From the NCBI GenBank assembly GCA_024405875.1, contig JAKSOA010000013.1, positions 1 through 57,934 of the forward strand: a stretch of DNA of 57,934 nt. Direction: 5' to 3'. Numbering within the stretch: the stretch's first letter is position 1; every line of letters begins with the position of its first letter. Below, in pieces: positions 1,289-29,039 of this stretch. Both the position numbers and the translations under genes were made by a program. The notes under the pieces were generated by a model. The model saw nothing but the letters and a program-made list of their open reading frames with translations, ran no database searches and was not told the origin of the DNA. The DNA comes from Paludibacteraceae bacterium. Its GTDB lineage: Bacteria; Bacteroidota; Bacteroidia; Bacteroidales; Paludibacteraceae.

Positions 1289-1321
1289 CTGTTAAAAATT
1301 TTTACATTTCAAAAACGGCTA

Positions 1322-1329
1322 CAAAGATA
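1322..1329 (-). promoter_or_regulatory. Bacteroidota -7 promoter element for porV
   Basis: On the minus strand this reads TATCTTTG, an exact match to the TAnnTTTG -7 consensus, 33 bp upstream of the porV start. No good TTTG -33 box is seen 19-21 nt upstream. PorV could therefore be transcribed separately from porU. Confidence 0.5.
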
Positions 1330-1357
1330 ACGCACTTTTTTGAATAATATTGTGTTT

Positions 1358-4300
1358 TTATTTGGTTTTAACAATTAATTTTTTCACAAGTTGTGTATAA
1401 TTGCCGTTTGGCGTATGTATAATGGCTCTCACCCAATAGACTCCGCTGCAAACGTTGTTGAATCCTCCTGCCATTTTCCAAGTGGAGTGATATGTTCCGT
1501 CTGTATTCTCTGTTACGGTGGAACTCCAATATTCTCTCCAGCCCATATCATAAACTCTGAATGTCACGCTCAGGGGAACTTCAGGTCTGTTGTGGCGCAG
1601 ATACATAGTGGCGTGGTCTGAGGCAGGGTTAGGATAGATGAAAAACTCTTCAATTTCCGGTCTTGCCAATGTGTCAACAACAAACTCCAATGATGTGGTG
1701 TTTGATATGTTCTGTAAATTCCAGACTTTGAAATCCAGTCTGTAAGAACCTTGCTCCAAATCCCGGAACTGATATTTAAACATTCCGTTTTTATAGTCAT
1801 TGAGTGCGGAGACATAAGAATCATTCAAATTGTATGTTCCTGAGACGGGACCAGTAAGTATTACTGTGGCATCGTGGCCGATACCGGCACCAACAACGTT
1901 CACACCATATTCATCAAACGTATGGGAGTAGAATACGGGCGAACTATTTACCTTCCCTCCGTTTACAAACTCAGGTGCGTTCATATAGGCTCGTATCACA
2001 GGTCCTACGGTGGTCTCCTCATAACTTGGGTCTGTGCCGCCAACTCTGAAATCCACGTCATTACCGAATGCGTCATTTTCCGTTGAGCCCTCCTGCCAGG
2101 CGTAATATAGGATTTTACCTTTGTCAATCCGGTAATTAATATCCTTTGGAACCATAAATGTTGTCTCAAAAAGACCGTTTGTTACAGATATGGTACCCTT
2201 AAACAATTTGTTAGGGTAGTCCTTATATGAGAAGGCGGACTTGTCTCCAACTTGCCCCAATGTCTTGAGAGTCTCCTCTTTATCATATACCGTTATTAAT
2301 ATCTTACCGTTAAAATTTTTCAAGGTGTCAGCGTTGGCATTCTCCAAATGTCCTCTTATTGTCACTATGCCAAGTGCCTGCATTTCGGCTTCTGCGGGAA
2401 CGGAGTGATTGATTGAGTCTGTTTTTACTATGTGAGATGGGTAGTGTATCTTTATGGCAGGGTCACCAAGCAGTGTGAAATTAAGTTTGTTTGAGTTGTT
2501 CTTCAAATCTATTTTAGCAAGGCGGAATATCTCTCCTATTGTCTTGTGCTCTGCATTAGCCTCTGGAAACAAATAGGTGAATGCGGCTTTCATAAGTTTG
2601 AAGTTCTCTGAAGAGTAAACCACACGTGTCGTGGTATATAGGGCTATACCGCCTCCGTTCGGGTTAAGTATGACCTCCATACCGGCAGAGTGTGACACGT
2701 CATCATATCTTGAGAAATCACAGGTTGCTGTAGCCCATAACGCAAGGTTCTTGTTGTACATTCCCGTAATGTCATTCTTTGATATGGTCTGCTCTGTTGT
2801 GAGTATATTGGGACTTCCGTGCCCCACGAATGTGAATACCACTGTTCCGTCTTTCAGGTTCTGAAGAACCTTGTTCCTGGCTCCGGGATAAGATGTTCCG
2901 GCGGAACTGTTTACGGCTATGTATGAATCAAGAAATATCTTATCAGTCCTATAACTGTTATTTGTCTCGGTCACCATAGAGGCAAGCTGGTCTGCCTGCT
3001 GTTCGTGTGCGTGGGAGTCATCATTATCCCCTAAGAATGTGCATAACGCACGCCAATCTCCAGTAGATGATGAGGTTACATAATTAATTGTCTTGGTAAC
3101 GACGTTTTCAGCCTCCTGTTCGGAAGTTACAGGTAGACGCCCGACACTTATGTCCATAGTCGCCGATGAAATGTAAGCCCCTTCGTTATCATCAAGCATA
3201 CCATAAAAATCATCGGTTGTGTATGATGAGGTGCTGGTGAGGGATTCTGGTGACTGATACCCTACAAGAGGGCGCTTCTCGTTTTTTATTCCGCGGTTGT
3301 CATAACCTGTCACACCCATGAGGAGCAGATGCTGCGGAAGTCTTCCCTTGCTCTCCATAGCTCTGTCATAAAACATCTTCATCAGCAGTCTGTAGGCGGA
3401 TACGTCAGGTGTGCCTGATGAGAACTCATTGTATATTAGTTCAGGGGTTATTATATGTACTGAAAGATTGTCGTTTGTACGGTGGAAATTAGCAAGGCGG
3501 TTTGCCGCATTCATATACTCCGGTGGTGTGATGATGACCATATCCGCAACACTCAGTTGATGTAGGTTCTGGTTCCCGACAGCACCAACCATCTTTGGCG
3601 CTTTTGCCGCATTAGGGTTGAATGCTATATATTTATGAAATTCGGAACGTTCCTCTTTGAATGTCAGTGTGCCGCCTGAGATGGTAGCCGGAATCCTTTT
3701 TGTTCTTACGGGGTCTGTTATATCCCAAACCATTGTTGAACCACTTGCTCCTGTTATCTCATATTTTGCTATTACGCCCCTTGTCAACTCTTCGGGGTTT
3801 GTAATGAGAATGGAACTGTTGTTTGAGTCCAGAATCAGCCTCTTGTAGTAATTTGCGCAGATGTAGTATAGATAACCTGCGTCAGAGGCGGAGAAAGGTG
3901 AGTATTTCAGTGAAATCCGGGGATTTGAGGAGGTGTTGTTATTCAAATATTTTTGGAACAGCCCCTTTTTGCCCGCAATATGTGAACTTGTTGAAGCGGC
4001 AATGTTGACTGTACCAGCGTCAGCTCCGTTAAAGGTTACGGCAAATTGTGTTTTGTTTGATGAATGTGCTACAAGTGTGGCGTCAATATATATATCCTCA
4101 CCTGTGTCAATATTAGTGTCACATATGGTGAATGTGCGTGACAGTGTGCCGCTACTGAATTTATATCCATACCACTCACGTCCGCTTGTCAGCAGGGTTG
4201 TCTCATCAGAATGAATATAATAACCTGCTAAAGTGTTTTTGAAGGTGACTGTGGGTTCATTTGTCACCAATGCCGCTTTCTCCATTCTCAAACCCTCTCC

Positions 4301-5149
4301 TGAACCACAGGTTATAAAGTAATACCCCTCCTTACTACAATAATTGTACGTGTATGAGTGTGTTGGTTCCTCTTTGGAAATATTGTCCTTCACCACACCT
4401 TGTGCGTAGAAGAGAATGTAATCACCTTCTGAGAATACTCCATCAGCACCTTTCTCCATATAGACGGCTACTTCAGGCAAATCATCATATCGTGGCAACG
4501 CCTTGCTCAGGTCTTCATCAATAAGAGCGCCTCCGTATCCGTATACCCTCACTCCGGCAGGGTCTCCTATTCCCATATTTTTTATATCAGAGTATGTTAG
4601 TTTGTATAACCCCGATGTCTCCACAGCAATTTTGTACCAACTACCGCCTGCCAGCACTGAATTAGCCGCATATTTTTGTGCGGTTTTTAATGCTTCACCT
4701 GTTTTTAATCCTCCGGATGCCTGACTGATGTGCAGAGAGGCACTCTCAATACGGTGCGCTGTACCATTTTTTATAAAAAACGGCAGTACATATATTTCAA
4801 GTGTTTTCTCACCACGTGTGGTTGCTATTTCCTTGTTAATAATGGGCTCTTCCCCGATGCCATAAAGCAGTTCTGACTCATCAGATGAGCAAGGGGCGCT
4901 TTTTATGTTGGTGAGTTCAACTATGAAATCAGAGGCTTTGCTTGACCGTTGTGCAGGAAAGTCTGTGTTGAACCAGGGAATGTTGTTGATGTGAATGGCG
5001 TCAGTGAATGTAAGCCTGATGAGCGTGTCGTCAAGGGCTGAGATGGTCTCAGCCTTGAAGCCTTCCGTTGTCAGAGGCGTGTAAAACTCTGTGGCGTGTG
5101 ATTTTATCACAGCAGTTAATAGAAACAATATGTAGATGAATCTTTTCAT
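1358..5149 (-). CDS. porU: PorU, gingipain-like T9SS sortase (peptidase C25)
   Basis: A 1263-residue exported protein matching PorU, the outer-membrane sortase that removes the C-terminal signal of T9SS cargo and links cargo to A-LPS. A signal peptide (about 1-19) precedes a prodomain-like N-terminal half. The C25 domain shows the catalytic His in FVGHGSPN (H777) and the catalytic Cys in ATATCDFSRYDD (C810). The last 90 or so residues resemble a T9SS C-terminal domain (FFIYPNPASDHATMYLRH), which PorU is known to carry. Start: the ATG overlaps the stop of the upstream FAH-family gene by 3 nt (ATGA), which suggests translational coupling. Downstream is porV. Strong family call; A-LPS attachment is not visible from sequence. 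Confidence 0.92.
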   Translation of the reverse strand: MKRFIYILFLLTAVIKSHATEFYTPLTTEGFKAETISALDDTLIRLTFTDAIHINNIPWFNTDFPAQRSSKASDFIVELTNIKSAPCSSDESELLYGIGEEPIINKEIATTRGEKTLEIYVLPFFIKNGTAHRIESASLHISQASGGLKTGEALKTAQKYAANSVLAGGSWYKIAVETSGLYKLTYSDIKNMGIGDPAGVRVYGYGGALIDEDLSKALPRYDDLPEVAVYMEKGADGVFSEGDYILFYAQGVVKDNISKEEPTHSYTYNYCSKEGYYFITCGSGEGLRMEKAALVTNEPTVTFKNTLAGYYIHSDETTLLTSGREWYGYKFSSGTLSRTFTICDTNIDTGEDIYIDATLVAHSSNKTQFAVTFNGADAGTVNIAASTSSHIAGKKGLFQKYLNNNTSSNPRISLKYSPFSASDAGYLYYICANYYKRLILDSNNSSILITNPEELTRGVIAKYEITGASGSTMVWDITDPVRTKRIPATISGGTLTFKEERSEFHKYIAFNPNAAKAPKMVGAVGNQNLHQLSVADMVIITPPEYMNAANRLANFHRTNDNLSVHIITPELIYNEFSSGTPDVSAYRLLMKMFYDRAMESKGRLPQHLLLMGVTGYDNRGIKNEKRPLVGYQSPESLTSTSSYTTDDFYGMLDDNEGAYISSATMDISVGRLPVTSEQEAENVVTKTINYVTSSSTGDWRALCTFLGDNDDSHAHEQQADQLASMVTETNNSYRTDKIFLDSYIAVNSSAGTSYPGARNKVLQNLKDGTVVFTFVGHGSPNILTTEQTISKNDITGMYNKNLALWATATCDFSRYDDVSHSAGMEVILNPNGGGIALYTTTRVVYSSENFKLMKAAFTYLFPEANAEHKTIGEIFRLAKIDLKNNSNKLNFTLLGDPAIKIHYPSHIVKTDSINHSVPAEAEMQALGIVTIRGHLENANADTLKNFNGKILITVYDKEETLKTLGQVGDKSAFSYKDYPNKLFKGTISVTNGLFETTFMVPKDINYRIDKGKILYYAWQEGSTENDAFGNDVDFRVGGTDPSYEETTVGPVIRAYMNAPEFVNGGKVNSSPVFYSHTFDEYGVNVVGAGIGHDATVILTGPVSGTYNLNDSYVSALNDYKNGMFKYQFRDLEQGSYRLDFKVWNLQNISNTTSLEFVVDTLARPEIEEFFIYPNPASDHATMYLRHNRPEVPLSVTFRVYDMGWREYWSSTVTENTDGTYHSTWKMAGGFNNVCSGVYWVRAIIHTPNGNYTQLVKKLIVKTK

Positions 5150-5763
5150 TTAATATAAAAATCAAGCAACTTGCGTCCCTCAAGCCAGCCTTCAAGATGG
5201 TTCCCTATCTTTACCGCTCCCACTCCTTCTGGTGTCCCTGTAAAGAAAATGTCACCTATCTTTAATGTGTAAAACTGACTCACGTATGATATTATTGCGT
5301 CAACGCTGTGAATCATATCAGATGTATGTCCGTTTTGAACAGTTTTTCCGTCAATGTCAAGGCGAAAGTTCAGATTCTGAATATCACCGCCCAAATCAGC
5401 AAGCGGAATAAACTCACTGATGGGGGCTGATGAGTCAAAACCCTTGCAAATGTCCCAAGGCTCACCGCACTCACGCGCCTGTTTCTGAAGGTCTCTCGCC
5501 GTAAAATCAATACCAAGTCCAACTTCTGCATAATAGCGTGAGGCAAACTTCTCCGCAATTCCTTTCCCTAATCGGTTTATCTTAACAATAAGTTCAATCT
5601 CATACTCTAACTGATTTGTGAAGTCAGGAATATAGACAGGTTTGTTATCTTTCAGAATGGCTGTCTCTGGCTTAAGGAATATTGTGGGGTGTGTTGAAGC
5701 GGTATTCCCTCCAAGTTCCCTGCAATGCTGCTTATAGTTCCATCCAACACAAAGCACCTTCAT
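5146..5763 (-). CDS. Fumarylacetoacetate hydrolase family protein
   Basis: A 205-residue protein of the FAH superfamily, cytosolic metal-dependent C-C hydrolases, isomerases or decarboxylases such as acylpyruvate hydrolase or oxaloacetate decarboxylase. Visible motifs are the N-terminal VLCVGWNYKQH, the lid motif PTIFLKPETAI, the metal-binding E-x-E (EYEIEL, about residues 69-74), the GLGIDFTARDLQ segment, and the C-terminal FFTGTPEGVG. Length fits the short YcgM-like single-domain members. It is the first gene of the FAH-porU unit and overlaps porU by ATGA. It has no evident link to secretion, so the pairing is probably only positional. The substrate cannot be told from sequence. Confidence 0.88.
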   Translation of the reverse strand: MKVLCVGWNYKQHCRELGGNTASTHPTIFLKPETAILKDNKPVYIPDFTNQLEYEIELIVKINRLGKGIAEKFASRYYAEVGLGIDFTARDLQKQARECGEPWDICKGFDSSAPISEFIPLADLGGDIQNLNFRLDIDGKTVQNGHTSDMIHSVDAIISYVSQFYTLKIGDIFFTGTPEGVGAVKIGNHLEGWLEGRKLLDFYIK

Positions 5764-5796
5764 AATTAATAATTAACAATTAATAATTAACAAAGT
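5764..5796. repeat. AT-rich tandem repeat at divergent junction
   Basis: Directly before the FAH-family start, a 14-mer (two 7-mer units, AATTAATAATTAAC) is repeated almost perfectly twice. It belongs to the heptanucleotide repeat class seen at other junctions in the window. No gene is seen in the 104-bp divergent gap; a promoter for the CotH-like gene follows. Confidence 0.55.
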
Positions 5797-5807
5797 TGTT
5801 TATTTTG

Positions 5808-5839
5808 TTTGCAAATTTAATATTATTATAGTAACTTTA
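5808..5839 (+). promoter_or_regulatory. Promoter of the CotH-like gene
   Basis: TTTG at 5808-5811 and TAACTTTA at 5832-5839, separated by 20 nt, match the Bacteroidota -33/-7 pattern with one mismatch in the last -7 base. The start codon is 28 bp downstream. An almost identical string (AGTAACTTTAC) precedes the secreted EEP-fold gene at 11226. Confidence 0.6.
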
Positions 5840-5867
5840 CAAAAATTTTATTTTCTTTCAAAAGCTT

Positions 5868-8057
5868 ATGAAAAAATTTACTTCTTCACTTATCTTATTG
5901 ATAGTGTCATTGTATGGTTTTACGGCTTTAGCCGTGAATATTCCTATGGGAACATTCTATTTTGACAACACCAACACAGGGTGGGTACAGCCCAAGTTTG
6001 TTTACGGAACCGATGCCAACTCAGCCATTTGGAATATGGAATGCGTGAACGGTAATGTCTGGAAATTCACCAGTCTGACTAACGTCAAAGGAATATCCAA
6101 GTACTTCTTCTCAGACACATCACTGCCAGAGGGTAATAAATATGACCCTGTGAATGTGCTTAAGGATGATATCGCTCTTACAAGAGGTGAACACCGTACC
6201 GCCACTTCAGCCATTCAGATAAACGTTGATTATATTTTCACACCTGAGGTCGCTGAAAATTGGAATCAAGGTATATGGAGTAAGTATGAGAAGGGTTACT
6301 CAGATTTCTGCATAGCGGGGAACGGAGATGAATATGAAGCGTTGGGTTGGTGCTGCGGATTATACTGGGATCCTGCAGCCTGCAATTTATTGAAAGGAGA
6401 CTCAATAGTATATGCCTTAGACGCTGGCACCTATACATTTAAGATAACATATGGCAGTTGGGAATACAACTGGGGTTTTGCAGCCCTTGACAAAGAGGGG
6501 AGTATAGCTTGCTTTGATGATTTGGACGGTAATGTGAATTTCACTCTTACGGAGCAACACAACATCACAATTAAATTTGACCAAAAGAACCAGATTATAA
6601 CTGTTATAAAAGACGGTGTGTCTCCCACACCTCCGCCGGTGATTACTTGTAATCCGTCATCAGGTACGCTGCCTGTAATGTATCTTAACACAGACTCAGG
6701 GCTTGAGATTACTGATGATGAGAATTATGTGCCTGCCACAGTCTATATAGACGCTATGGGTATTCCAGGATATGAGTCTTTGGGAACAAAAGATGAGCCA
6801 TTAGTTGCGGAGACAAAGGGTAGAGGTAACTATACCTGGACGGGGTTTGATAAGAAACCGTACGCTCTGAAGTTTGCAAAAAAGCAGACTCCGCTTGGTC
6901 TTACAAAAGACAAGAGTTTCACACTTCTTGCCCACGCAGATGACTCTGACGCCTTCTTGCGTAATACTTTGGGCTTTAAACTAAGCAGATTGTTCGGACT
7001 TGTCTATACCCCTGGACAGGAGCCGTTTGAACTCTATCTCAACGGAATATACAGAGGAATCTATTTCCTTACAGACAAACTGAAGATAAGTAGTAACCGT
7101 GTGCAGGTTACGGAGCAAGAGGAGGGAGAGACAGACCCTGCCTTGGTTACAGGCGGCTGGTTGCTTGAGATAGATAACTATTGGGAAGACCCTTCCGTTC
7201 AATTCCAAATGGAGGAAAAAGATGGAGAAATGCTAAGAGTTACAAGCAAATCACCAGAGGTTATGTCTAATGTTCAGTATGATTATATGTGGAATTACCT
7301 CTATAAAACCAATGAAGCCATACATAAAGGAGGCTGGGAGAACTACATAGATTTGGACACATTGGTTAATTTCTATTTGGTTCAAGAGGTAATAGGTAAC
7401 GATGAGTCATTCCACGGCAGTTGCTATATGCACAAGGAGAGGGGCGATAATACAAAACTTGAGTTCGGACCAGTGTGGGATTTCGGCTCATCACTTCATC
7501 ACTATAACGGATATCATATCTATGAGTTCCCTGCTTGGGGAGATACTTGGATAGATGACCTTGCCGCCTACCCGTCATTCCAAGACCAATGCGCCATACG
7601 TTGGGAGGAGGTTAGAGGCTCTCTTTATCCTGAATTGAAGAAGGAGGCTGACGCCTTTATTGACAAGATTTCCGCTGCCGCCGCTTGCGACCTTAAAAAG
7701 TGGCCTGAGTATGGTAATGACAAACTTCAGACAAAAAAGTCTCAGGTGCTTGCATACTTAAAGGAGAGAATGGAGTGGCTTGACACACAGTGGGGTACTA
7801 CAGATGTTAATTCATACTCTGATGGCTCTGATATTAAACTTACACTATATCCTAATCCTACAGAGGGTGAGATTAATATAAAAGGAGTTGAGAATATTGC
7901 CGATGTCTATGTCACAGATTTGAGTGGCAGAAGAATCAGTGTACTCAATGTATCAGATAGTTCCTCTTGGAGCATTAACGCCGCTCCAGGAACATATATA
8001 GTAAATGTTATTGACGGAGACGGAAATTACTATAATGGCAGAGTGGTTGTGCGTTAG
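5868..8057 (+). CDS. Secreted CotH-kinase-like protein with T9SS type A sorting domain
   Basis: A 729-residue protein with a signal peptide (about 1-22). Residues of about 25-250 form two glycan-binding-like beta modules (GTFYFDNTNTGWVQPKFVYG and a later NWGFAALDKEG segment). A CotH domain covers about 285-620, with YLNGIYRGIYFLTDKLK, LLEIDNYW and the NDESFHGSCYMHKERG...GPVWDFGSS block typical of CotH. CotH proteins include atypical kinases that phosphorylate spore-coat proteins. The last 80 residues are a T9SS type A signal: LTLYPNPTEGEINI, then VTDLSGRRIS and a final basic strand. It is likely exported and anchored by the PorU/PorV system encoded just upstream. The gene's stop overlaps the convergent helicase gene by 4 bp. 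The substrate is unknown. Confidence 0.85.
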   Translation: MKKFTSSLILLIVSLYGFTALAVNIPMGTFYFDNTNTGWVQPKFVYGTDANSAIWNMECVNGNVWKFTSLTNVKGISKYFFSDTSLPEGNKYDPVNVLKDDIALTRGEHRTATSAIQINVDYIFTPEVAENWNQGIWSKYEKGYSDFCIAGNGDEYEALGWCCGLYWDPAACNLLKGDSIVYALDAGTYTFKITYGSWEYNWGFAALDKEGSIACFDDLDGNVNFTLTEQHNITIKFDQKNQIITVIKDGVSPTPPPVITCNPSSGTLPVMYLNTDSGLEITDDENYVPATVYIDAMGIPGYESLGTKDEPLVAETKGRGNYTWTGFDKKPYALKFAKKQTPLGLTKDKSFTLLAHADDSDAFLRNTLGFKLSRLFGLVYTPGQEPFELYLNGIYRGIYFLTDKLKISSNRVQVTEQEEGETDPALVTGGWLLEIDNYWEDPSVQFQMEEKDGEMLRVTSKSPEVMSNVQYDYMWNYLYKTNEAIHKGGWENYIDLDTLVNFYLVQEVIGNDESFHGSCYMHKERGDNTKLEFGPVWDFGSSLHHYNGYHIYEFPAWGDTWIDDLAAYPSFQDQCAIRWEEVRGSLYPELKKEADAFIDKISAAAACDLKKWPEYGNDKLQTKKSQVLAYLKERMEWLDTQWGTTDVNSYSDGSDIKLTLYPNPTEGEINIKGVENIADVYVTDLSGRRISVLNVSDSSSWSINAAPGTYIVNVIDGDGNYYNGRVVVR

Positions 8058-18096: not shown

Positions 18097-18114
18097 GTCT
18101 CGTCATCTCCTCCC

Positions 18115-18140
18115 GTCATTCTGAGCGAAGCGAAGAATCT
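18115..18140. repeat. Dispersed GTCATTCTGAGCG repeat, copy 2
   Basis: The 26 bases repeat copy 1 (12808-12833) exactly: GTCATTCTGAGCG followed by AAGCGAAGAATCT. It lies between the mutB stop and its terminator. Confidence 0.8.
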
Positions 18141-18141
18141 C

Positions 18142-18182
18142 AACCTCCGGTAAGAAAATTTCTCTTATCGGAGGTTTTTTTT
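18142..18182 (+). terminator. Rho-independent terminator of mutAB
   Basis: AACCTCCGGTAAGA (18142-18155) pairs with TCTTATCGGAGGTT (18163-18176) over 14 positions with one mismatch, and is followed by a run of eight T (18175-18182). It closes the mutA-mutB unit. Confidence 0.85.
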
Positions 18183-18194
18183 CAAAAATATTTT

Positions 18195-18202
18195 TATCTT
18201 TG
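18195..18202 (+). promoter_or_regulatory. -7 promoter element of candidate ncRNA
   Basis: TATCTTTG is an exact TAnnTTTG match. No ORF with a plausible start follows closely, but a structured 300-nt stretch does. The -33 region overlaps the T-run of the mutAB terminator and has only a TTTC match. Confidence 0.55.
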
Positions 18203-18500
18203 CAAGGCTGTACGCGCTGGAAGTGCTTAATTAAAAGAGCGGTGAGGGTGGACAGACACAGAGACAAACGAGTCTCTGTTGACATAAAATAGGCGTTTAT
18301 TGACGCTCAGTTTCTGCATTTCAGAATCTGGTAAATTCTTTTAATTATAGTGGAAACATAGCAACAATGAATGTCCTGCGAGTATGGATATTCGCATACG
18401 GCTTGGGCTTCTTGTTGCTTGGACTTCTGTAATGGGCTTACCAGAGCCTTTATATGCGGGACGAGCAGCAATCGGGTTCCGCTTTTTATACCCGTATGTA
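18203..18500 (+). ncRNA. Candidate structured non-coding RNA
   Basis: This 300-nt stretch lies between the mutAB terminator and the next gene and follows a -7 element. It holds several hairpins: ACAGAGAC/GTCTCTGT closing on AAACGA (about 18258-18279), GCGT/ACGC around 18293-18305, GTTTC/GAAAC around 18310-18356 enclosing AGAAT/ATTCT, GTATG/CATAC (about 18382-18399), GTCCTGC (18373-18379) able to pair with GCGGGAC (about 18456-18462), and CGGGT/ACCCG (about 18474-18494). The density of helices is far above the spacer norm here. It is not tmRNA, RNase P or SRP RNA by their hallmark motifs. A 6S-type RNA (Bacteroidales-1 class) is possible but I cannot confirm it. A 21-codon ORF (18367-18432) lies inside. 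Confidence 0.5.
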
Positions 18501-18594
18501 AAATAAGTTAGATTTTGAAAGATTGTGGTGTATGTTTGTCTCTAATAATAAGATATTGTTTTAACCTATTTATTAACTTTTAAAAAATTAAAGT

Positions 18595-19419
18595 ATGAAA
18601 AAATTTTTAACTCTTGTATTTGTAGCTGTAATGGCAATGATGGCAAATGCCCAAAAAACGTATGAATTGGGCGAGATTGTAGAAATGGATGGCGTAAAAG
18701 GTATGGTTTACCAATTGGATGAAAACGGACGACATGGTAAGATGTTTTCAATTCAGGTGCCCAAAAAGGTAAAGTTCTGCACTAATAAGAAATTTGCAGA
18801 TGATTTGGGTGCAGATGATTATTATGATGGTCAGAAAAATATGGCAGCCATAGATAAGTATCTGAAGGAACATAATTTGGATTGGTCTTATTTCCCAGCA
18901 TATCAATGGGCGAAGGAATTAGGCGAAGATTGGTATGTGCCTTCCATTAAGGAGTTACAAACTCTTTTTGAGTTTTTGTTAGGTGTAAATATGACTTTAG
19001 ATACAGAAGGAGAAGATGATTCGGCGGAACCAGAGGAGGTTGGTTCTTCAACCGACGATGAAAATGAGTTGGCGGAAATATCTTCTGTTTTAAAAGAGTC
19101 TGATGTGAAAATACCCAAAGGTGCAACAAAAAGGGGTAAGGCTTTAAATAACCAATTAAAAGATGCTGGTGGTGAAAAGTATTTTAATTTTGTGTATGGT
19201 GGAGGATATAGAATTACATCATTGATATCTTCTACGTACGTAAACGTGTCTTATGAGAAAAAAGGTAAAACGAAATATGTGAACGGTGGCCTTATGTATT
19301 TCCATCAAAATTTATCAGGTGTTGGTGTGGCATTGCTCGGGAAGGTAAAGCCTTTTATGTTTACTGCTAAAAATTTTTCATTAGCAGCTCCGCAAGTTCG
19401 TGCAATCCGTGAATTTTAA
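18595..19419 (+). CDS. Exported protein with DUF1566/FGE-sulfatase-like segment
   Basis: A 274-residue protein with a clear signal peptide (MKKFLTLVFVAVMAMMANAQ). The segment WAKELGEDWYVPSIKELQTL (about 103-122) resembles the W-x-LP-x-x-x-EL signature of DUF1566 and related lectin-like domains. Residues of about 140-170 form an acidic, Glu/Asp/Ser-rich linker. A YGGGYRITSLISSTYVNVSY stretch follows, also typical of that fold. It starts a run of nine genes for exported proteins and is 6 bp before the WG-repeat gene. A weak promoter-like TAACTTTT lies at 18574-18581. The function is unknown. Confidence 0.75.
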   Translation: MKKFLTLVFVAVMAMMANAQKTYELGEIVEMDGVKGMVYQLDENGRHGKMFSIQVPKKVKFCTNKKFADDLGADDYYDGQKNMAAIDKYLKEHNLDWSYFPAYQWAKELGEDWYVPSIKELQTLFEFLLGVNMTLDTEGEDDSAEPEEVGSSTDDENELAEISSVLKESDVKIPKGATKRGKALNNQLKDAGGEKYFNFVYGGGYRITSLISSTYVNVSYEKKGKTKYVNGGLMYFHQNLSGVGVALLGKVKPFMFTAKNFSLAAPQVRAIREF

Positions 19420-19425
19420 AATTTT

Positions 19426-20721
19426 ATGAAGAAAATAGTGCTTTTAAATCTGATGCTGTGCATGTGTGTATGTACCTATGCACAGCATCTTGTTCCTATA
19501 TCCCAAAGTGGTAAATGGGGGTATGCTGATGAAGATGGCAATGTTATTATTCCTGCCAAATATTCTGCTGTCGGAGATTTTTGTAAAGGTTATGCTTGGG
19601 TTAATCAAGGTGGTAAGGCTAAATACGCCCAATGTCCGGAAGGAGGTAAATGGGGGATAATTAACAAAAAAGGGGAGATTGTATGTCCGATAGAATATGA
19701 TTGGATTGATTATTTGACAGGCGATATCATAGCCGTTAACAAGGGTGGTGTTATGAGTTACACCAAATATAAAGACAAACCTAATCATTATATAGTTTCA
19801 GGTGGTTTGTGGGGTTATTATGATTTGGCTAATAAAGTAGAACTGGTTTCGCCACAATATAATCAGGTAAGTGCATTTTATAAAGATGGAGTGGCTTGGG
19901 TTCAGAAAGGAGGAGACCTTGTTTTTCAGATACGTGTAAGAGAAGAGAAGAATGCAAAGGGAAAGGTTGAGAATTTGGAACGTATGTTCGAGGTGTTTGG
20001 TTTTTATTCTATTTTGCGACAATTTGAACGTTATAAAGCAAGTGGTCAATGGGCACTGATAAACAAAAAGGGCGAATTGCTTACAGATTTCACATTTACC
20101 ACTGTCGGTGATTTTAAAAGCGGATATGCATGGGCATATAATAATGGTTATGGTGTCCTAAATATGAGTGGTAAAACAATAATTCCGTTTCAATATGAGA
20201 ATATCTCTGAATGTTTTGATGGTAATGTTTTCTGGGTATGGCAAAAGGATGGCAAAGGGGATGATGACTTAATAGGTCTAGTAAATGCTGACAATAAATT
20301 ACTTACAGAGTTTAAATACAATAGGGTGACTGATTTTGATGATGGTGTTGCTTGGGCTAAAATAGGAGAAAAGTGGGCTGTTGTCAGCGACAAAGGCAAA
20401 GAATTGTCTGATTTTATTTATGATAAACATGGTAAATTTACAAATGGAGTGGCGTATGTAAGCAAGGATAATTTGTATGGCTACATTAACAGTTCTGGTA
20501 ATCTGATAACAAATATTGAATATATAGGTGCGCAATCAAGATTCGGTTTGGGCTGTCCATTTAGATTTAATAGGAACGACAACGATTTGTCTATAGGTTG
20601 GGTTCGTGCTGTTGATAAGAAAATTGTCTGGCTTGATTCAAATGGCAAGATTATTTGTGAAAGCGATAAAACAATATACGGTATAACAGATACCATTCCA
20701 AATGCTTTGTGGGATTATTAA
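19426..20721 (+). CDS. Exported WG-repeat protein
   Basis: A 431-residue protein with a signal peptide (about 1-19) and a tandem series of WG (KWG) repeats of about 45-60 residues: GKWGYADEDGNVIIPAKYS, GKWGIINKKGEIVCPIEYD, GLWGYYDLANK, GQWALINKKGELLTDFTF, GYGVLNMSGKTIIPFQYE, then later copies to about residue 390. WG repeats are beta-rich modules thought to bind ligands or proteins. No catalytic domain is visible. It lies between the DUF1566-like gene (6 bp upstream) and a paralogue-pair member 10 bp downstream, so it is likely in one transcript with them. Confidence 0.85.
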   Translation: MKKIVLLNLMLCMCVCTYAQHLVPISQSGKWGYADEDGNVIIPAKYSAVGDFCKGYAWVNQGGKAKYAQCPEGGKWGIINKKGEIVCPIEYDWIDYLTGDIIAVNKGGVMSYTKYKDKPNHYIVSGGLWGYYDLANKVELVSPQYNQVSAFYKDGVAWVQKGGDLVFQIRVREEKNAKGKVENLERMFEVFGFYSILRQFERYKASGQWALINKKGELLTDFTFTTVGDFKSGYAWAYNNGYGVLNMSGKTIIPFQYENISECFDGNVFWVWQKDGKGDDDLIGLVNADNKLLTEFKYNRVTDFDDGVAWAKIGEKWAVVSDKGKELSDFIYDKHGKFTNGVAYVSKDNLYGYINSSGNLITNIEYIGAQSRFGLGCPFRFNRNDNDLSIGWVRAVDKKIVWLDSNGKIICESDKTIYGITDTIPNALWDY

Positions 20722-20731
20722 AAAATCAAAT

Positions 20732-21982
20732 ATGAGACGAATATTTACTATAATTTTATCAATATTGTTGCCAATGATGGCGATATGCCAACAGAGTGAC
20801 AAATATATGCGAAGTTCTCTATATTCTATTCTTCTTTCCCATCCGGAACAAAAAATGGATAAAGAGATTACGTCTGCGTTTATGAAATTGAAAACACCAG
20901 ATAAGTTCAATAATCATGATCTTAGTGTAAAATATATAACAACTACCAAAGCTAAAGGGGATGATCTAGAACAAATGATCTCATCTTTCCTTTATGTAAA
21001 CCAAGTACCTAAACGAATGATATCAAAATGGTTTAATCGTGATGAAAATGGTGCATTTGACATTGACCTTCTTAAAGAGAGAGGCTTATACGGGACTTCA
21101 TGGCAAGATAACCAGATTTCTAAATTTACGATAAGAGGGAAAGCAGAATTGGCTGATGCCGGAGAGCAGTTAATAGGCAATACATTCCTTGTTGTAAATA
21201 ACGTAAGGTATATAGATAAGGAAAAAAATGCACAAATAGCTAAAATAATTCTTTCTGCTATAGCATCTTTCATACCTGGAGTTGGTGGTGCAGTTGGCGA
21301 TTTGATAAAAAATGTTGTTGATTTAGCATCTCAAATAGCGAATCTCATTGCTGGATTTACAGTTAAAATTACTACATATCTTTATCAAATAGAATGGAAT
21401 GATGAGGTTGCAAATACCTTTTATAACCAATACTATGCTGATAAAAAACATATTACACCAGAAATGAAAGCCACATTTGAATCAGATACTACATTATTTA
21501 GAATCAAGTATATCGGCAGATTTACATCGACAAGTTCAAAAACCGTGGCTCGTGGTATTCAGGAACCCAGTGATGTATTCCGAAAAGTATTGGCTCGTGC
21601 CATTGACCGAAATATTGTGGATTTACAACGTAAATATGATGTGTTTAAGGTGAAAGTACCTGTTTTAGCAGTAAAAGGAGATAGATTAACAGCTCCGATA
21701 GGTATGAAGGAAGGAATAACAGCAACTTCAAAATATGAAGTTTTAGAACGTGTTTTAAGTAAAGATGGCAAGACTCAGTATCAACAAGTTGGTGTTGTAC
21801 GACCTATAAAAGACCTTATTTGGGATAACCGTTATATGTCAGTTGAGGAAGAGGCTGATGGAGCAGAGTTAGGATATACCACTTTTGAAAAGGTTTCAGA
21901 AACAAAAGAATTTTACGCTGGAATGTTGTTAAGAGAGGCATCTTTCTCAGGTAGTGTTGTTGATGAATCGGAGGATGATTAA
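20732..21982 (+). CDS. Exported protein of unknown function, paralogue of 26013-27365
   Basis: A 416-residue exported protein. I take the ATG at 20732, which begins the signal peptide MRRIFTIILSILLPMMAICQ, over an in-frame ATG at 20702 inside the preceding gene. It shares a whole-length architecture with the gene at 26013: TPDKFNNHDLSVK near the N terminus, ERGLYGTSWQDNQISKFTIR, then a hydrophobic patch (about 175-215, SFIPGVGGAVGDLIKNVVD), TTYLYQIEWNDEVANTFYNQ and a C-terminal IGMKEGITATSKYEVLERVL...IWDNRYM module. That last module resembles the GxxxG..YEV pattern of FlgT-like or SH3-like C-terminal domains, but this is only suggestive. No characterised family is recognised. Confidence 0.75.
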   Translation: MRRIFTIILSILLPMMAICQQSDKYMRSSLYSILLSHPEQKMDKEITSAFMKLKTPDKFNNHDLSVKYITTTKAKGDDLEQMISSFLYVNQVPKRMISKWFNRDENGAFDIDLLKERGLYGTSWQDNQISKFTIRGKAELADAGEQLIGNTFLVVNNVRYIDKEKNAQIAKIILSAIASFIPGVGGAVGDLIKNVVDLASQIANLIAGFTVKITTYLYQIEWNDEVANTFYNQYYADKKHITPEMKATFESDTTLFRIKYIGRFTSTSSKTVARGIQEPSDVFRKVLARAIDRNIVDLQRKYDVFKVKVPVLAVKGDRLTAPIGMKEGITATSKYEVLERVLSKDGKTQYQQVGVVRPIKDLIWDNRYMSVEEEADGAELGYTTFEKVSETKEFYAGMLLREASFSGSVVDESEDD

Positions 21983-22016
21983 ACTTTGATACAACATAAT
22001 AGGTCAAAGAGACATA

Positions 22017-22048
22017 TTTGCACAAAAAGATATTTATGCATAAATTTG
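22017..22048 (+). promoter_or_regulatory. Promoter within the exported-protein cassette
   Basis: TTTG (22017-22020), a 20-nt spacer and TAAATTTG (22041-22048) match the consensus fully. It lies 40 bp before the start at 22089, so the cassette has at least two transcription units. Confidence 0.75.
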
Positions 22049-22088
22049 TATCCTGTATGGAACGGTAAACATTTTTAAAATTTATAAT

Positions 22089-22574
22089 ATGAAAAAGATT
22101 GTTTTATTTCTGGTAACCGTTATGGCGGCAACAGTTTGTATGGCTAAATCTTCTGCCGACAAAAACACAGAGCAGTGGAAATATGATATTGAGTGTGCTG
22201 GTGTGGGTGCTCAGGGTACATACCTTGTCAAGGTCTATTCATACTCAAAATCACAAGCAAAGGCACAGAAACAGGCTATTAAGAATGCCGTCCACGGCGT
22301 AATCTTCAAAGGTGTTATGGGAAAGGGCAGAGAGTGCAACTCACAGCGTCCTTTAGCCAAGGCTGAGGTTGCAAGCCAGCATCAGGATTTCTTTGACAGA
22401 TTCTTTGCTGAGGGTGGTGATTATGCTAAATACGCATCTGCCACAGGCGCTCCTGAGACGTCAAAAGTTGGAAAGGAGTATAAGGTTGGTGTTGTGGTAT
22501 CTGTACAAAAAGACCAATTGCGCAAGGATTTGGAGGATGCCGGCGTACTTAGAGGTTTAAGTTCAGGATTTTAA
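22089..22574 (+). CDS. Small exported protein, paralogue of 23572-24054
   Basis: A 161-residue protein with a signal peptide (MKKIVLFLVTVMAATVCMA). Core: a strand pair, GTYLVKVYSYSKSQAKAQKQAIKNAVHGVIF, then a conserved Cys near GRECNSQ, HQDFFDRFFAEGGDYAKY and a final VGVVVSVQKDQLRKDLEDAGV. The alternation of a short strand, an alanine-rich helix and a final strand is like LPP20/FlgO-type envelope domains, but the identity is not established. It shares order and spacing of all these elements with the 160-residue protein at 23572. First gene behind a consensus promoter. The role is unknown. Confidence 0.75.
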   Translation: MKKIVLFLVTVMAATVCMAKSSADKNTEQWKYDIECAGVGAQGTYLVKVYSYSKSQAKAQKQAIKNAVHGVIFKGVMGKGRECNSQRPLAKAEVASQHQDFFDRFFAEGGDYAKYASATGAPETSKVGKEYKVGVVVSVQKDQLRKDLEDAGVLRGLSSGF

Positions 22575-22583
22575 TGTTTAACA

Positions 22584-22616
22584 GACGGCTTCAATACCTT
22601 TTGTGCGGGAGCCGTC
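22584..22616 (+). promoter_or_regulatory. Intercistronic hairpin
   Basis: GACGGCT (22584-22590) and AGCCGTC (22610-22616) form a perfect 7-bp stem between the small exported-protein gene and the barrel gene, 17 bp before the next ATG. There is no T-run, so it may be an mRNA-processing or stability element rather than a terminator. Confidence 0.45.
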
Positions 22617-22632
22617 ATAACATAATGATTTT

Positions 22633-23553
22633 ATGAAAAAAATAATACTCTCATTGATTTTGTGTGCCGTAGGCGTATGCTCACTGATGGCACAGGATGT
22701 GGTTTACCTGAAAAACGGTAACATTGTTAAAGGTGAGGTTAAAAAGAACGACGCTACCACAGTGGAGATTGTTTCAAATGGCAACACTTTGACTTATAAA
22801 GCCATTGATGTGCAAAAAGTGCAGATTGGCAGCACCGCTGTAACTGTGCCTGAGACACCTAACCGTCCTAAATATAAAGATTATGATACAGCGGAGAAAG
22901 GTTATTGGACTGCTGTAGAGTTGTGGGGTGGTGGAGCCGTTGATTTCGGAGGCAAGCCTAATATGTGCAATATTGACATTCATTGGATTAACGGATACAG
23001 ATTCAATGAGTGGATACGCATAGGTGTAGGTCTTGGTTTCCGTTACTATCTTGGTGATTTGAACTTTGCCTCTGCTGATGGCAAAAGTTATCCGGAACCA
23101 ATCAGTTCAGGTTATAATTGGACAGACCCGTCTAATCCAAAAGAGGGCTTGGGCGGCTCACAGTGGGCTCTTCCGCTATATTTGGACTTGCGTGGTAACA
23201 TTATGTCAATGGCAACCCGTATGTGCGTTCCATATTGGTCATTTGACGCAGGTTACACCTTCTCTGGAAAGTTTGTGAACCAGGCTGAAACTGTTAAGAG
23301 CGCTGCCACTGGAGACGACCCTACAATTGTAATAGGTGGAGATAAACTGCAAGGTCAGGGTTTCTTCTTTGCTCCCACACTTGGTATTAAGATAGTAGGT
23401 CCGCGTCACACAGTGTTGCTTGGTATAAGTTATATGGGGCAGATTTTGCCAAGATATAGTGACTATACAGCAGGCCCTCAGGCTCAGGCTGTTCCATACG
23501 TATCAGCAAAATACACAAACTTCCTTATGGGAAGAGTCGCATACGAATTTTAA
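22633..23553 (+). CDS. Predicted outer-membrane beta-barrel protein
   Basis: A 306-residue exported protein with a signal peptide (about 1-20). Residues of about 21-75 form a small domain (DVVYLKNGNIVKGEVKKNDATTVEI) that occurs at the start of many Bacteroidota outer-membrane proteins. The rest alternates amphipathic strands with polar turns (GYWTAVELWGGGAVDFGG, IRIGVGLGFRYYLGD, FFFAPTLGIKIVG) and ends in an aromatic residue (GRVAYEF), as expected for a barrel assembled by BAM. It lies between the two small paralogues of the cassette and could be its membrane component. Function inferred from architecture only. Confidence 0.75.
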   Translation: MKKIILSLILCAVGVCSLMAQDVVYLKNGNIVKGEVKKNDATTVEIVSNGNTLTYKAIDVQKVQIGSTAVTVPETPNRPKYKDYDTAEKGYWTAVELWGGGAVDFGGKPNMCNIDIHWINGYRFNEWIRIGVGLGFRYYLGDLNFASADGKSYPEPISSGYNWTDPSNPKEGLGGSQWALPLYLDLRGNIMSMATRMCVPYWSFDAGYTFSGKFVNQAETVKSAATGDDPTIVIGGDKLQGQGFFFAPTLGIKIVGPRHTVLLGISYMGQILPRYSDYTAGPQAQAVPYVSAKYTNFLMGRVAYEF

Positions 23554-23571
23554 TCTAAAAACTTTAATGAT

Positions 23572-24054
23572 ATGAAGAAAAGTTATTTAATAGGTTTGGC
23601 ATTGACGATGTTTATTCCAATGTCATTAAATGCTAAGAAAACTGATTTAGGAGCATATCAGAACATACCTACAGAGTGTATGAATGTGGAACTTGACGGT
23701 TCTCAGACACTTAGGGTATATGGCAAGGGACGTAACCGCACTGATGCCATAGAGCAGGCTAAGAAAAACGCCGTATATGAGGTTCTTTTCAGCGGTATCA
23801 AGAGCGGTAACGGTGGTTGCAACACACAGCCGTTGTTGCTTGAAGTTAACGCTAAGGAGAAATATGAGTACTATTTTAATGTCTTCTTCAAAGATAAAGG
23901 AGAGTATTTGAAGTATATTAGTATGGAAGACCAGCGCATACTCTCTAAGAAATGGGGCTACCGTAAGGAGCAGATGTATTATGGTATCACAGTAAGAGTT
24001 CTGCGTCCCGAACTTAAACAACGTCTGATTGATGACGGTATTATTAAACCATAA
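23572..24054 (+). CDS. Small exported protein, paralogue of 22089-22574
   Basis: A 160-residue protein with a signal peptide (about 1-22, MKKSYLIGLALTMFIPMSLNA). It repeats the layout of the 161-residue protein: TLRVYGKGRNRTDAIEQAKK, NAVYEVLFSGIKSG, a Cys in GGCNTQP, YEYYFNVFFKDKGEYLKY and a terminal YGITVRVLRPELKQRLIDDG. The conserved single Cys in the same place in both copies is notable. It lies 18 bp after the barrel gene and 49 bp before the DUF6175-like gene. Function unknown; LPP20/FlgO-like folding is a guess. Confidence 0.75.
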   Translation: MKKSYLIGLALTMFIPMSLNAKKTDLGAYQNIPTECMNVELDGSQTLRVYGKGRNRTDAIEQAKKNAVYEVLFSGIKSGNGGCNTQPLLLEVNAKEKYEYYFNVFFKDKGEYLKYISMEDQRILSKKWGYRKEQMYYGITVRVLRPELKQRLIDDGIIKP

Positions 24055-24103
24055 GCGGTTGATATTGTCTAACGGATAATAGATAAACAAATAACTTTTA
24101 GAT

Positions 24104-25054
24104 ATGAAAAGAATATTGATTTTTGTAACATCGCTATTAGTTGCGGTGTCAGCAATGGCAGAGTCACACGCTACAAAACCAACTCTTATGGTCGTTCCAA
24201 GTGACGCTTGGTGTAGTGAGAACGGTTATGTGCAAGACTTTGACAATCAGGGTACTGTAGAGAGAATTCCTGATTATAAAAGAGCGTTGCAAAGTGACCA
24301 GAACCTGATGCTTGCAATCTCAAAGATTAATGATATGATGGCGGACCGTGGTTTCCCGCTAAAGGATTTGGAGAGCAATCTTAAATCCATTGCAAACCGC
24401 ACGGCTGAAATGAATGTGACAACAAGCAAGTCTGGCTCAACTATTGCTCAGAGCCCGTTGGATATGTTAAAAAACACCGCTAAGGCTGACATTATTATTC
24501 AACTGGGTTGGTCTGTTTCAGAAACAGGTCCTAAAAAGACTCTGACATACATTTTAAGAGGTCTAGATTCATACACAGACAAACAGATTGCGGGTGCGAG
24601 CGGAAGCGGAGCCCCATCTATGAGTTCAGAGGTGCCTGTGTTGCTTGAAGAGGCTGTTGTTGATAAAATGGATGAGTTCACAGGACGTCTTGAAGAGTAT
24701 TTTAATGATTTGTTTGACAACGGACGTGAGGGTATATTTGAGGTTCGTGTGTTTGACAACGGCTCCGGACTTGATTTGGAGAGTGAGTTTGGCGGCACGG
24801 AACTCAGTGAGATTATTGATGACTGGATGCACCAGAACACTGTAGAACACCGTTATTCACAATCTGAGGCTTCTGAGAACTATATGTTGTTTGAACAAGT
24901 CCGTATGCCTCTTATGGATGAGAAAGGCAAGGCTATGACAGCAAAGGTTTTTGCAGACAATCTGCGTAAATACCTTAAGCAGACATACCAAATAGAATCC
25001 AAAACTGCAAACAGAGGTTTGGGTAGGGCATATTTGATAATTGGTGAGAAATAA
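24104..25054 (+). CDS. DUF6175-like exported protein
   Basis: A 316-residue protein with a signal peptide (about 1-20). Its start LMVVPSDAWCSENGYVQDFD and the following RALQSDQNLMLAISKIN and DRGFPLKDLESNLKSI match my memory of the DUF6175 family of Bacteroidales. ADIIIQLGWSV, a LTYILRGLDSYTDKQIAGAS segment and FDNGREGIFEVRVFDN follow. The GLDSYTDKQIAG stretch resembles CsgG/TolB-type domains that form multimeric envelope structures, but this is a weak similarity. It is 17 bp before the next gene. No biochemical function is known to me. Confidence 0.7.
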   Translation: MKRILIFVTSLLVAVSAMAESHATKPTLMVVPSDAWCSENGYVQDFDNQGTVERIPDYKRALQSDQNLMLAISKINDMMADRGFPLKDLESNLKSIANRTAEMNVTTSKSGSTIAQSPLDMLKNTAKADIIIQLGWSVSETGPKKTLTYILRGLDSYTDKQIAGASGSGAPSMSSEVPVLLEEAVVDKMDEFTGRLEEYFNDLFDNGREGIFEVRVFDNGSGLDLESEFGGTELSEIIDDWMHQNTVEHRYSQSEASENYMLFEQVRMPLMDEKGKAMTAKVFADNLRKYLKQTYQIESKTANRGLGRAYLIIGEK

Positions 25055-25071
25055 TTAAAAACAGGCGAAAT

Positions 25072-26025
25072 ATGAAAAAGTTAAGTTTGATTATATTGAG
25101 TGTTTGTATGTTTGGCATTCAGGCGTACGCCCAGACAGTGGACTTTAATGACAAGAATAGTCAGATTCACCTTTCAATAATGATTCCAGACCAGGAGGGA
25201 GAGACAATACAGACAGGTGCCAAGAGTTATCTGACCAATAAACTTAAGCAGATTGCTGTTAAAAACGGTATAGCGGCTAATGAGGATTTCAGTAGATTCT
25301 TCATTACAACAGTCATAACACCGCTTACAAAGGACATTCTGCCTGGCCCACCTGCTCAGGTAGTGGAGAATCTGGAGATGACATTCTATATTGCAGATTA
25401 TTATGACCAGAAAGTCTATTCAAGCACCTCTATGGAGGTTAAGGCAATAGGCACAAATGATACCAAAGCATATATAAATGGTATTAAGAACATAAATGTG
25501 AACAACAAGCAGTTGGCTGATTTTATGGATGAGGGTAAGAGCAAGATTATAGCCTACTATAACGCACGTTGCTCTCAAATTATGCAGATTGCTCAGAGTA
25601 AGGCTGATAAGAAGGAGTATGAGGCTGCCATCTTTGACCTTATGTCAGTGCCGGAGGTTTGTGACTGCTACAATGAAGTTCTTGCTTTGTCACAAAAGAT
25701 ATATCAGCAGTATATAGACCACCTTTGTCAGGTTAATTTGGCACAAGCACGTACAGCGTGGGCTGCCGAGCAAAATTCAGAAGGTGCCAAGGCCGCTGGT
25801 CAGTATCTTTCTCAGATTCTTCCTGACGCCGCCTGCTATGGTGATGCTATGGCACTTTATACAGAAATCAAGTCTAAGGTGCTTGATGACTGGAAGTTTG
25901 AGATGAAGATATATCAAGACCAGGTTGATTTGGAGAAACAGCGTATAGATGCTATGCGTCAGGTAGGAATAGCCTACGGAAATCACCAACAGCCGGTAAC
26001 AACAGTATTCCCTTGGCTAAGATAA
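25072..26025 (+). CDS. Exported protein of unknown function
   Basis: A 317-residue protein with a signal peptide (MKKLSLIILSVCMFGIQAYA). The N-terminal half is beta-rich with IHLSIMIPDQEGETIQTGAK and MTFYIADYYDQKVYSS. The C-terminal half (about 150-317) is helical, with NARCSQIMQIAQSKADKKEY, two CDCYNE/AACYG cysteine sites, and a coiled-coil-like end (YQDQVDLEKQRIDAMRQV). The helical part looks like a TPR-type array. Its last 13 bp overlap the next gene, so the two are probably translationally coupled. No named family is recognised. Confidence 0.7.
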   Translation: MKKLSLIILSVCMFGIQAYAQTVDFNDKNSQIHLSIMIPDQEGETIQTGAKSYLTNKLKQIAVKNGIAANEDFSRFFITTVITPLTKDILPGPPAQVVENLEMTFYIADYYDQKVYSSTSMEVKAIGTNDTKAYINGIKNINVNNKQLADFMDEGKSKIIAYYNARCSQIMQIAQSKADKKEYEAAIFDLMSVPEVCDCYNEVLALSQKIYQQYIDHLCQVNLAQARTAWAAEQNSEGAKAAGQYLSQILPDAACYGDAMALYTEIKSKVLDDWKFEMKIYQDQVDLEKQRIDAMRQVGIAYGNHQQPVTTVFPWLR

Positions 26026-27365
26026 GATTATCAGTTATAATTATGCTTGCAGTATCCTGTGTGGAAATCTCCGCACAGGATATTGTTAATGACGGGCTGC
26101 AACGGTACCGCCGTAATGCCATTGCCACAATGATGGTGCTACACCCTGAAGATGAGTTCGGAAAGGATATAAAAGACGCCTATCTTGAGATTCCCACTCC
26201 AGACAAGTATGATAACCACGATATAGGCATCAAGGTGTTGGATAACAGTTGGTTTACAGGAGTACAGCGGAACAAGGACGGCTTGTACAAGGCTGTATAT
26301 GGTAAGAATCTCTCAAAATCAGAGATTGAGAAGAACGGGTTGGCGTTGGAGCGGTTCTTCAACCAGAATAATGTAGGAATGTTAATGGTCGCCAAGTGGT
26401 TTAACCTCAAATCTGACGGTTCTGGCGAGTTTGACTATTCCACAGCAAGATTCAGTACAAATCTCATTCAGGAACGTGGAATGTATGACGCCACAGCCTT
26501 AGACGTGGAGATGGCACGCCATACAATAAGAGGGGTGGATATGCTTGCTGACGCGGGAGAGGAACTCATATCACAAACATTCATCATTGTGAATGATATG
26601 ACATACGTTACAGCGGAGCAGAAGGCAGAGGCTGCAAAGGCCGCATTGTCAGTACTCGGAAGTATTACAGATGCTTTTCTTGGAGGACACTCAGGTAGGG
26701 ATATGGCGAATATGGCAGGTGCCATAGCAGACAGTTTCACAGGGTTCAAAGTCCGCAACCACTCATACCTCTTTCAACTTCAATGGAATGACTCCATTGC
26801 CGCACTCTTTTACAAATACTACTATACAGAGACCCCCGATGAAGAGAAAATCAGGGCGTTTGAGCGTAATGACTCTTTGTTTAAGGTGAAGTACGTGGCG
26901 TATGAATATGAGTATGATGAGAACTCCGTGCTAAAAGGTCAATATGACCGCCATGACTTGATAAAGATAAACTGCACCAGAAGCCAGGATAAAAATATCG
27001 CTCAACTTCAGGTAAAGTATGAGGATTTCAAGTTGAAGACTCCTATATACAAGGTGGTTAGAAATGACCAAGGCAAGGTGCTCTATTATGCCGCCAAAGT
27101 TGGAATGAAGGAGGGTATAACCCCTAAAAGCAAATTCCAGGTGGTGCAACGTATAATAGACCCAAAGACAAACAAATCAAGATATAAGTATGTGGCAACC
27201 CTTAAACCCATCAAGGGCAAGATATGGGATAACCGCTATATGGCTACAGAAGAGCAGGAGAAGGGCTCTGAGTTGGACGCAACTCAGTTCAAAAAGTCCG
27301 GTGGCGGAGAAATTTATGAGGGTATGCTCATTATTGAAGGAAAATACCGCAAGGTAGAGCAGTAA
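26013..27365 (+). CDS. Exported protein of unknown function, paralogue of 20732-21982
   Basis: A 450-residue protein. The start is probably the TTG at 26013, overlapping the previous gene by 13 bp, since the next ATG (26043) would cut the signal peptide (AKIRLSVIIMLAVSCVEISA). It shares with the gene at 20732 TPDKYDNHDIGIKV, an ERGMYDATALDVEMARHTIR block, ADAGEELISQTFIIVND, SYLFQLQWNDSIAALFYKYY and VGMKEGITPKSKFQVVQRI...IWDNRYMATEE. It differs in the N-terminal third and a shorter hydrophobic patch. The pair encloses the rest of the cassette. Function unknown. Another TTG-free start cannot be ruled out. Confidence 0.75.
   Translation: MAKIRLSVIIMLAVSCVEISAQDIVNDGLQRYRRNAIATMMVLHPEDEFGKDIKDAYLEIPTPDKYDNHDIGIKVLDNSWFTGVQRNKDGLYKAVYGKNLSKSEIEKNGLALERFFNQNNVGMLMVAKWFNLKSDGSGEFDYSTARFSTNLIQERGMYDATALDVEMARHTIRGVDMLADAGEELISQTFIIVNDMTYVTAEQKAEAAKAALSVLGSITDAFLGGHSGRDMANMAGAIADSFTGFKVRNHSYLFQLQWNDSIAALFYKYYYTETPDEEKIRAFERNDSLFKVKYVAYEYEYDENSVLKGQYDRHDLIKINCTRSQDKNIAQLQVKYEDFKLKTPIYKVVRNDQGKVLYYAAKVGMKEGITPKSKFQVVQRIIDPKTNKSRYKYVATLKPIKGKIWDNRYMATEEQEKGSELDATQFKKSGGGEIYEGMLIIEGKYRKVEQ

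Positions 27366-27419: not shown

Positions 27420-29039
<1,620 letters not shown>

Follow-up and report, generated by a model that had tools for sequence, protein, structure and literature searches.

In two papers (PMC7990780, PMC12222027), FlgO, FlgP and FlgT are described as outer-membrane-associated assemblies with SHS2-like subunits. Together with the curli channel CsgG, LpoB and the LPP20/TIP-alpha superfamily of Helicobacter, these flagellar proteins are the described systems closest to a locus of nine consecutive open reading frames (ORFs p1-p9) in a Paludibacteraceae assembly (GCA_024405875.1; 1.85 Mb, 79% complete). All nine lie on the + strand at 18595-27365 of the stretch analyzed here, positions 1-57,934 of contig JAKSOA010000013.1 (the window), and this position and strand agree with the initial annotation. 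A literature search found no paper on this cassette, nor on DUF6175, the family of p7, by name. We refer to the two large paralogs (p3, p9) as BIG, to the two small ones (p4, p6) as SML and to the family of p8 as P8. BIG, SML, DUF6175 and P8 constitute the core.

We propose that these genes specify an envelope assembly in Bacteroidales that lack flagella, in which a BIG protein of one type, clade B, docks a tagged partner, and we give this proposal an even chance of being right. The tag itself is a new observation, namely a C-terminal W-x-[YF], mostly WDY or WDF, on the protein whose gene immediately precedes that of a clade-B BIG.

The C-terminal tag and the core gene set

Clade B combines two four-row clades of the BIG tree, that of p3 (support 97/97) and its neighbor (92/82), which were merged only after the tag had been noticed. 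The tree keeps 47 of 49 BIG proteins, with pieces shorter than 300 aa left out. Eight of eight discovery genes carry the tag, with or without WG repeats, and so do three of three further genes outside the tree (L101, L102, L104). Among the 773 ORFs of 58 mapped loci, a C-terminal W[DEN][FYW] occurs seven times, each time directly upstream of a clade-B BIG; the looser W-x-[YF] ending occurs 11 times, eight of them in that position. The tag is absent from all eight listed ORFs upstream of BIG genes of other kinds. A test on further genes covered 27 places. It found the tag at 19/22 BIG genes of 383-479 aa retrieved with the clade-B profile and at 0/5 BIG genes of the 492-513 aa type. Among all these further genes there are close relatives, so that not every one counts as independent. 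The three misses are L198, where the upstream protein ends in FYDF, and L199 and L219, where no upstream ORF was found. Left out of this test were genes already counted (L106, L101, L214, L215), second pieces of such genes (L210, L211, L212, L221) and four other loci: L206, L209 and L220, where no upstream ORF was found, and L208, whose upstream ORF lacks the tag.

The tag carriers are WG proteins or proteins without a Pfam family over cut-off (L195, L138, L037, L039 and an open frame in L202). WG proteins do not carry the tag as such: it is absent from all 22 WG frames (frames under Pfam matches) away from BIG, in 20 regions of 10 tag-bearing genomes, and no BIG was found in those regions. 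In the window genome, the five WG matches listed of seven counted all fall within p2. A DNA-level artifact (translation coupling) was rejected as the source of the tag because codons, stop codon and spacer vary.

Other C-terminal endings were noticed near BIG. In the window (26008-26022) and in L004, L031, L032, L033 and L037, P8 has W-[LMV]-[RK] as its C-terminus, mostly just before the core BIG; the same ending is seen in L131 and L137. It would fit a second partner rule, less regular than W-x-[YF]. The ORFs before the BIG frames of L208 and L212 end in GWLW and NWVK, respectively.

The 58 mapped loci were all chosen via BIG or DUF6175 matches, and their common order is BIG-SML-DUF6175-P8, after which several have two further genes, X1 and X2. 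The genes p4-p5-p6-p7-p8-p9 are kept together in five relatives (L004, L031 with p9 inverted, L032, L033 and L036). BIG is at the front in L034, p5 is missing from L035, and both p4 and p5 are missing from L037. Across the genus, p9 orthologs adjoin the core. SML is fused to DUF6175 in nine loci (L041, L127, L133, L152, L153, L154, L155, L157, L158). At L128 (G592:C47) there are BIG genes without adjoining SML or DUF6175, one of them split into two adjacent ORFs.

A first draw of genomes from the genus, family and order gave a p9 match in 16/61. Of 344 evenly drawn Bacteroidales genomes, 79 have DUF6175 and 59 have BIG; 58 of the 59 BIG genomes have DUF6175, and in 54 it lies within 5 kb of BIG (Fisher P ~1e-46 for co-occurrence, kinship ignored). 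A draw across the phylum gave DUF6175 in 19/395 genomes. The genes thus co-occur in many genomes, so the possibility that they are not found together elsewhere, which would have undone the initial annotation, does not hold. None of 60 BIG genomes gave a FliF match, while four of the 14 named controls were positive.

The same draw bears on a possible accessory role in the type IX secretion system (T9SS). The proteins appear exported, they come from an order in which that system is common, and the window genome has SprA. The presence of SprA is uninformative, however, because SprA_N is found in 323/344 genomes. Four genomes have BIG and DUF6175 and no SprA_N match (G411, G728 and G553, each 99% complete, and G651, 82% complete). 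The core is therefore not confined to genomes with the SprA translocon, and we rejected a T9SS role as very improbable.

Phage or plasmid cargo was also rejected: no relatives of BIG (query A1) or of query A4 were confirmed in viral contigs, and plasmids gave no match to p9. The one "phage" record matched by p7 and p9, MT836698.1, is an unverified fecal scaffold. It is filed as an unverified bacteriophage and unannotated; its ORFs at 568-7075 (L222) include the same seven exported genes in the order WG-BIG-SML-barrel-SML-DUF6175-P8, that of window p2-p8 (assigned by eye), and the protein upstream of its BIG ends in WNY. We recognized no phage-like gene in its ORF list by eye, and it is probably a Bacteroidales fragment. 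Anti-phage defense was rejected as well, p9 having given only a weak PADLOC match (PDC-M19A, E 0.0022, 15 bits).

Organization of the window

The initial annotation presented the nine genes as one cassette; given the terminator-like site after mutB, the promoter-like site before p4 and the comparison with L004, we rejected a single nine-gene operon in favor of two units (Table 1). The nearest named record, L004, is a horse-feces Paludibacteraceae assembly with 89% identity in p7. In L004, mutB is followed by about 200 bases and then p4, with no p1-p3 in between. The left part of these bases aligns with window positions 18098-18196 and the right part with 21997-22086, and p1-p3 therefore reads as an insertion, placed between the terminator-like site of mutB and the promoter-like site of p4. 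The third-codon-position GC content (GC3) is 0.24-0.31 in p1-p3 vs 0.40-0.50 in p4-p9. We take TTTG-N20-TAAATTTG to be the Bacteroidota promoter type. A site of this form lies 37-44 nt before p4 in L004, L031, L032 and L033 as well; it is not present in full form before p4 in L034, L035 and L036, and none was found within 250 nt upstream of any of the other eight window genes. The window contains 14 matches to the pattern vs 3.3 expected; apart from the site before p4, two of them are internal to p7 and p8 (+ strand). Judged from these sequence features, the inherited operon is p4-p9, which has a promoter-like site of its own, and p1-p3 is an AT-rich insertion of other origin. That there are two transcription units of different origin was missed in the earlier description. 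The mutB-p4 interval holds differing inserts: p1-p3 in the window (18197-21996) and other genes in L031 (9620-13016), where an ATPase-like gene stands between two genes of 275-277 aa with identical first 45 residues.

Table 1. Coordinates of the features in the window.
Feature	Position	Strand	Description
Terminator-like site	18142..18176	+	Intrinsic type, after mutB, left border; 14-pair stem and T run, same stem in matching L004 stretch
p1-p3 insertion	18197..21996	+	Satellite module, approximate extent ~3.8 kb, from L004 flank matches and GC3
p1	18595..19419	+	Exported, DUF1566/Lcl_C-like; Lcl_C match sub-threshold in Pfam
p2	19426..20721	+	Exported WG-repeat protein, candidate tagged partner, directly upstream of BIG p3
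Tag codons of p2	20710..20718	+	C-terminal W-D-Y
p3	20732..21982	+	BIG clade B, remotely CsgG/FlgT-like; no Pfam match
Promoter-like site	22017..22048	+	TTTG-N20-TAAATTTG of core operon, 40 nt before p4
p4	22089..22574	+	SML, small, LPP20-fold-like; no Pfam match
Insert in p4	22311..22454	+	Between long helix and next core strand; model residues 56-103
p5	22633..23553	+	Small N-terminal domain and predicted outer-membrane barrel
p6	23572..24054	+	Second SML paralog; no Pfam match
p7	24104..25054	+	DUF6175, remote CsgG/LpoB-type protein
p8	25072..26025	+	Exported, TPR-like C-terminal part
p9	26013..27365	+	BIG of core operon, here clade A; TTG start; no Pfam match

Two units raise the alternative that p1-p3 and p4-p9 are functionally unrelated neighbors and p1-p3 a passenger island. 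This would agree with the insertion, the differing GC3 and the promoter-like site of p4, and also with L138 and L039, where a clade-B BIG occurs without the core. Against it, WG-BIG modules like p2-p3 lie inside or adjoin core operons, at either end, in L043, L131, L132, L137 and L222. Because such modules recur beside such operons elsewhere, we consider one joint system plausible and the passenger island improbable.

Several details of the initial annotation hold. All nine N-termini look signal-peptide-like by eye, while a crude signal-peptide heuristic was also positive on 212/456 background ORFs. The gaps are short with some overlaps, -13 to 106 nt with p3 taken from 20732; the ORF list has an earlier in-frame ATG at 20702, which would make the p2-p3 value -20. 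The two paralog pairs stand, with 36% identity in alignment for p3 and p9 and 25% for p4 and p6, each of which retrieves the other by phmmer. Local duplication as the source of p3 and p9 was rejected, the tree placing them in different BIG clades. The ORF at 27426, 3' of p9, presumably encodes an ABC-F ATPase.

Remote relations of the proteins

Two of the proposed family assignments were borne out by Pfam. In p2, WG_beta_rep (PF14903) matches in eight stretches (E 3.2e-52, 174.6 bits vs a cut-off of 25.6), and p7 matches DUF6175 (PF19672; E 8.4e-117, 389.9 bits vs a cut-off of 23). The others hold in part. The likeness of p1 to DUF1566 rests on the Lcl_C match given in Table 1; relatives of p1 lie near BIG in L138 and adjoin it in L198 (by eye). 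For p5 and p8, Pfam matches are sub-threshold only. The suggested beta-barrel in p5 is plausible, short of proof: the LA_0442-type N-terminal domain (NCBIfam NF047433, E 8.8e-9) is below cut-off, and the C-terminus is AYEF. The p5 family is present in 8/58 mapped loci. The helical character proposed for p8 applies to its C-terminal part, with matches to ARM_TT21 in 4/14 P8 members and to TPR_19 in 2/14.

The four top VIA-align rows for the SML model belong to the LPP20/TIP-alpha superfamily, and the model weakly resembles TIP-alpha and Lpp20. The insert of p4 holds four of the nine invariant columns of the SML family. LPP20 (PF02169) is not among the 13 Pfam families listed for 24 SML members. 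X1 and X2, exported and LPP20-like by profile, accompany the core in L134, L135, L142, L045 and L143. An LPP20 search of the window genome gave no match, with a model that also missed X2 in G032. SML proteins of the p4 type have a common C-terminal L-x-x-G-F (22557-22571 in the window), modeled with low confidence, which is possibly another docking tail. A lipobox-like pattern is found in some p6 relatives.

Some operons without BIG are headed by a gene of the CsgG/LpoB type, over the CsgG cut-off and mostly over the LpoB cut-off as well; two variant heads have FlgT_C below threshold. No CsgG match (PF03783) over cut-off was found in the nine window proteins, nor among the families listed for 20 BIG and 14 P8 members. 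By profile comparison, BIG matches eight CsgG-type variant heads at 87% and a wider, joint CsgG-type set at 18%, and DUF6175 matches the eight heads at 40% and this joint set at 79%. P8 matches CsgG-type proteins at 4.8% at most. The joint set is without L180, and the eight-head comparison is without its P8 rows, among them 5 of 65 control pairs. BIG and DUF6175 may be remote CsgG/LpoB-type proteins. The predicted BIG structure has a pLDDT of 43, too low for a fold search, and PDB sequence searches with queries A1-A4 (A1 being BIG and A3 being P8) returned nothing significant. A barrel-like C-terminal extension is present in 20/49 BIG proteins, and two of the eight extensions submitted to Pfam had OMP_b-brl below threshold. 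The BIG extensions showed no homology to the barrel of p5, and this relation was rejected. The remote homologies point to an envelope assembly, as had been suggested, over a metabolic set.

We considered two other systems as well. In the first, an outer-membrane export or surface display system, BIG would be a CsgG-like pore, the WG and other tagged proteins its cargo and the tag an export signal. The CsgG-type heads of some variant operons, the barrels within or beside BIG and the fact that unrelated proteins encoded immediately before BIG bear the tag are all consistent with this. However, in the loci examined the tag is on one neighbor rather than on many proteins (there was no whole-genome census), and we think export unlikely. 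The second is an LpoB/Tol-like complex that maintains the cell wall or the outer membrane, with the WG and p1 proteins as sensors or ligand binders. LpoB equals CsgG as a Pfam match for some heads (E 2.9e-9 in L150, 3.7e-8 in L156), which favors it. The patchy distribution of BIG, in 59/344 genomes, argues against a housekeeping function, and this complex seems to us quite unlikely.

Proposed assembly and comparison with known systems

The assembly that we propose would probably be located on the periplasmic side of the outer membrane. The SML proteins p4 and p6 would be LPP20/FlgP-type, SHS2-like ring subunits with an insert; in FlgP and FlgT, an insert at this position correlates with the formation of rings. 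The remote CsgG/LpoB-type parts would be p7 and the two BIG proteins, the latter possibly with an end resembling FlgT_C. The anchor in the outer membrane would be a barrel, that of p5 or the C-terminal extension of BIG, and P8, TPR-like in one half, would be a scaffold. A clade-B BIG would dock the protein encoded upstream of it, here the WG protein p2, via the C-terminal W-D-Y, so that the docked protein would be a swappable partner added to the core.

If this is correct, gut Bacteroidales would have an undescribed envelope assembly, and DUF6175, together with several families that have no Pfam entry, would gain a suggested role. The three-residue tag would be a simple rule marking the partner of a neighboring CsgG-like protein. 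A bolder version is possible, though we hold it with more doubt than confidence: a new outer-membrane machine of non-flagellated Bacteroidota in which SML forms rings and BIG a CsgG/FlgT-like platform or pore recognizing a C-terminal W-D-[YF] on a dedicated partner of exchangeable fold, be it a WG protein or one of several others, each BIG clade having its own partner.

Compared with known systems, p7 is a member of DUF6175, a family without an assigned function. The LPP20/TIP-alpha superfamily is approached by SML, through its structural model, and by X1 and X2, through their profiles. With CsgG and LpoB the likeness is in the heads of BIG-less operons, which are over cut-off, and in the remote profile matches of BIG and DUF6175; the window proteins, in contrast, are below all cut-offs and are accompanied by the SML, DUF6175, P8 and WG set. 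The H-ring/basal disk of Vibrio and Campylobacter, formed by FlgO, FlgP and FlgT, is flagellar, whereas here there is no FliF and no Pfam match of the window proteins to the FlgO, FlgP and FlgT families. The SML model nevertheless shares with it the insert at the ring-associated position, and FlgT_C appears below threshold in two variant heads. If the proposal is correct, it would bear on the origin of flagellar ring proteins; in the bolder version, an older envelope ring kit without a flagellar role would have found one of its uses in the H-ring and basal disk of flagella.
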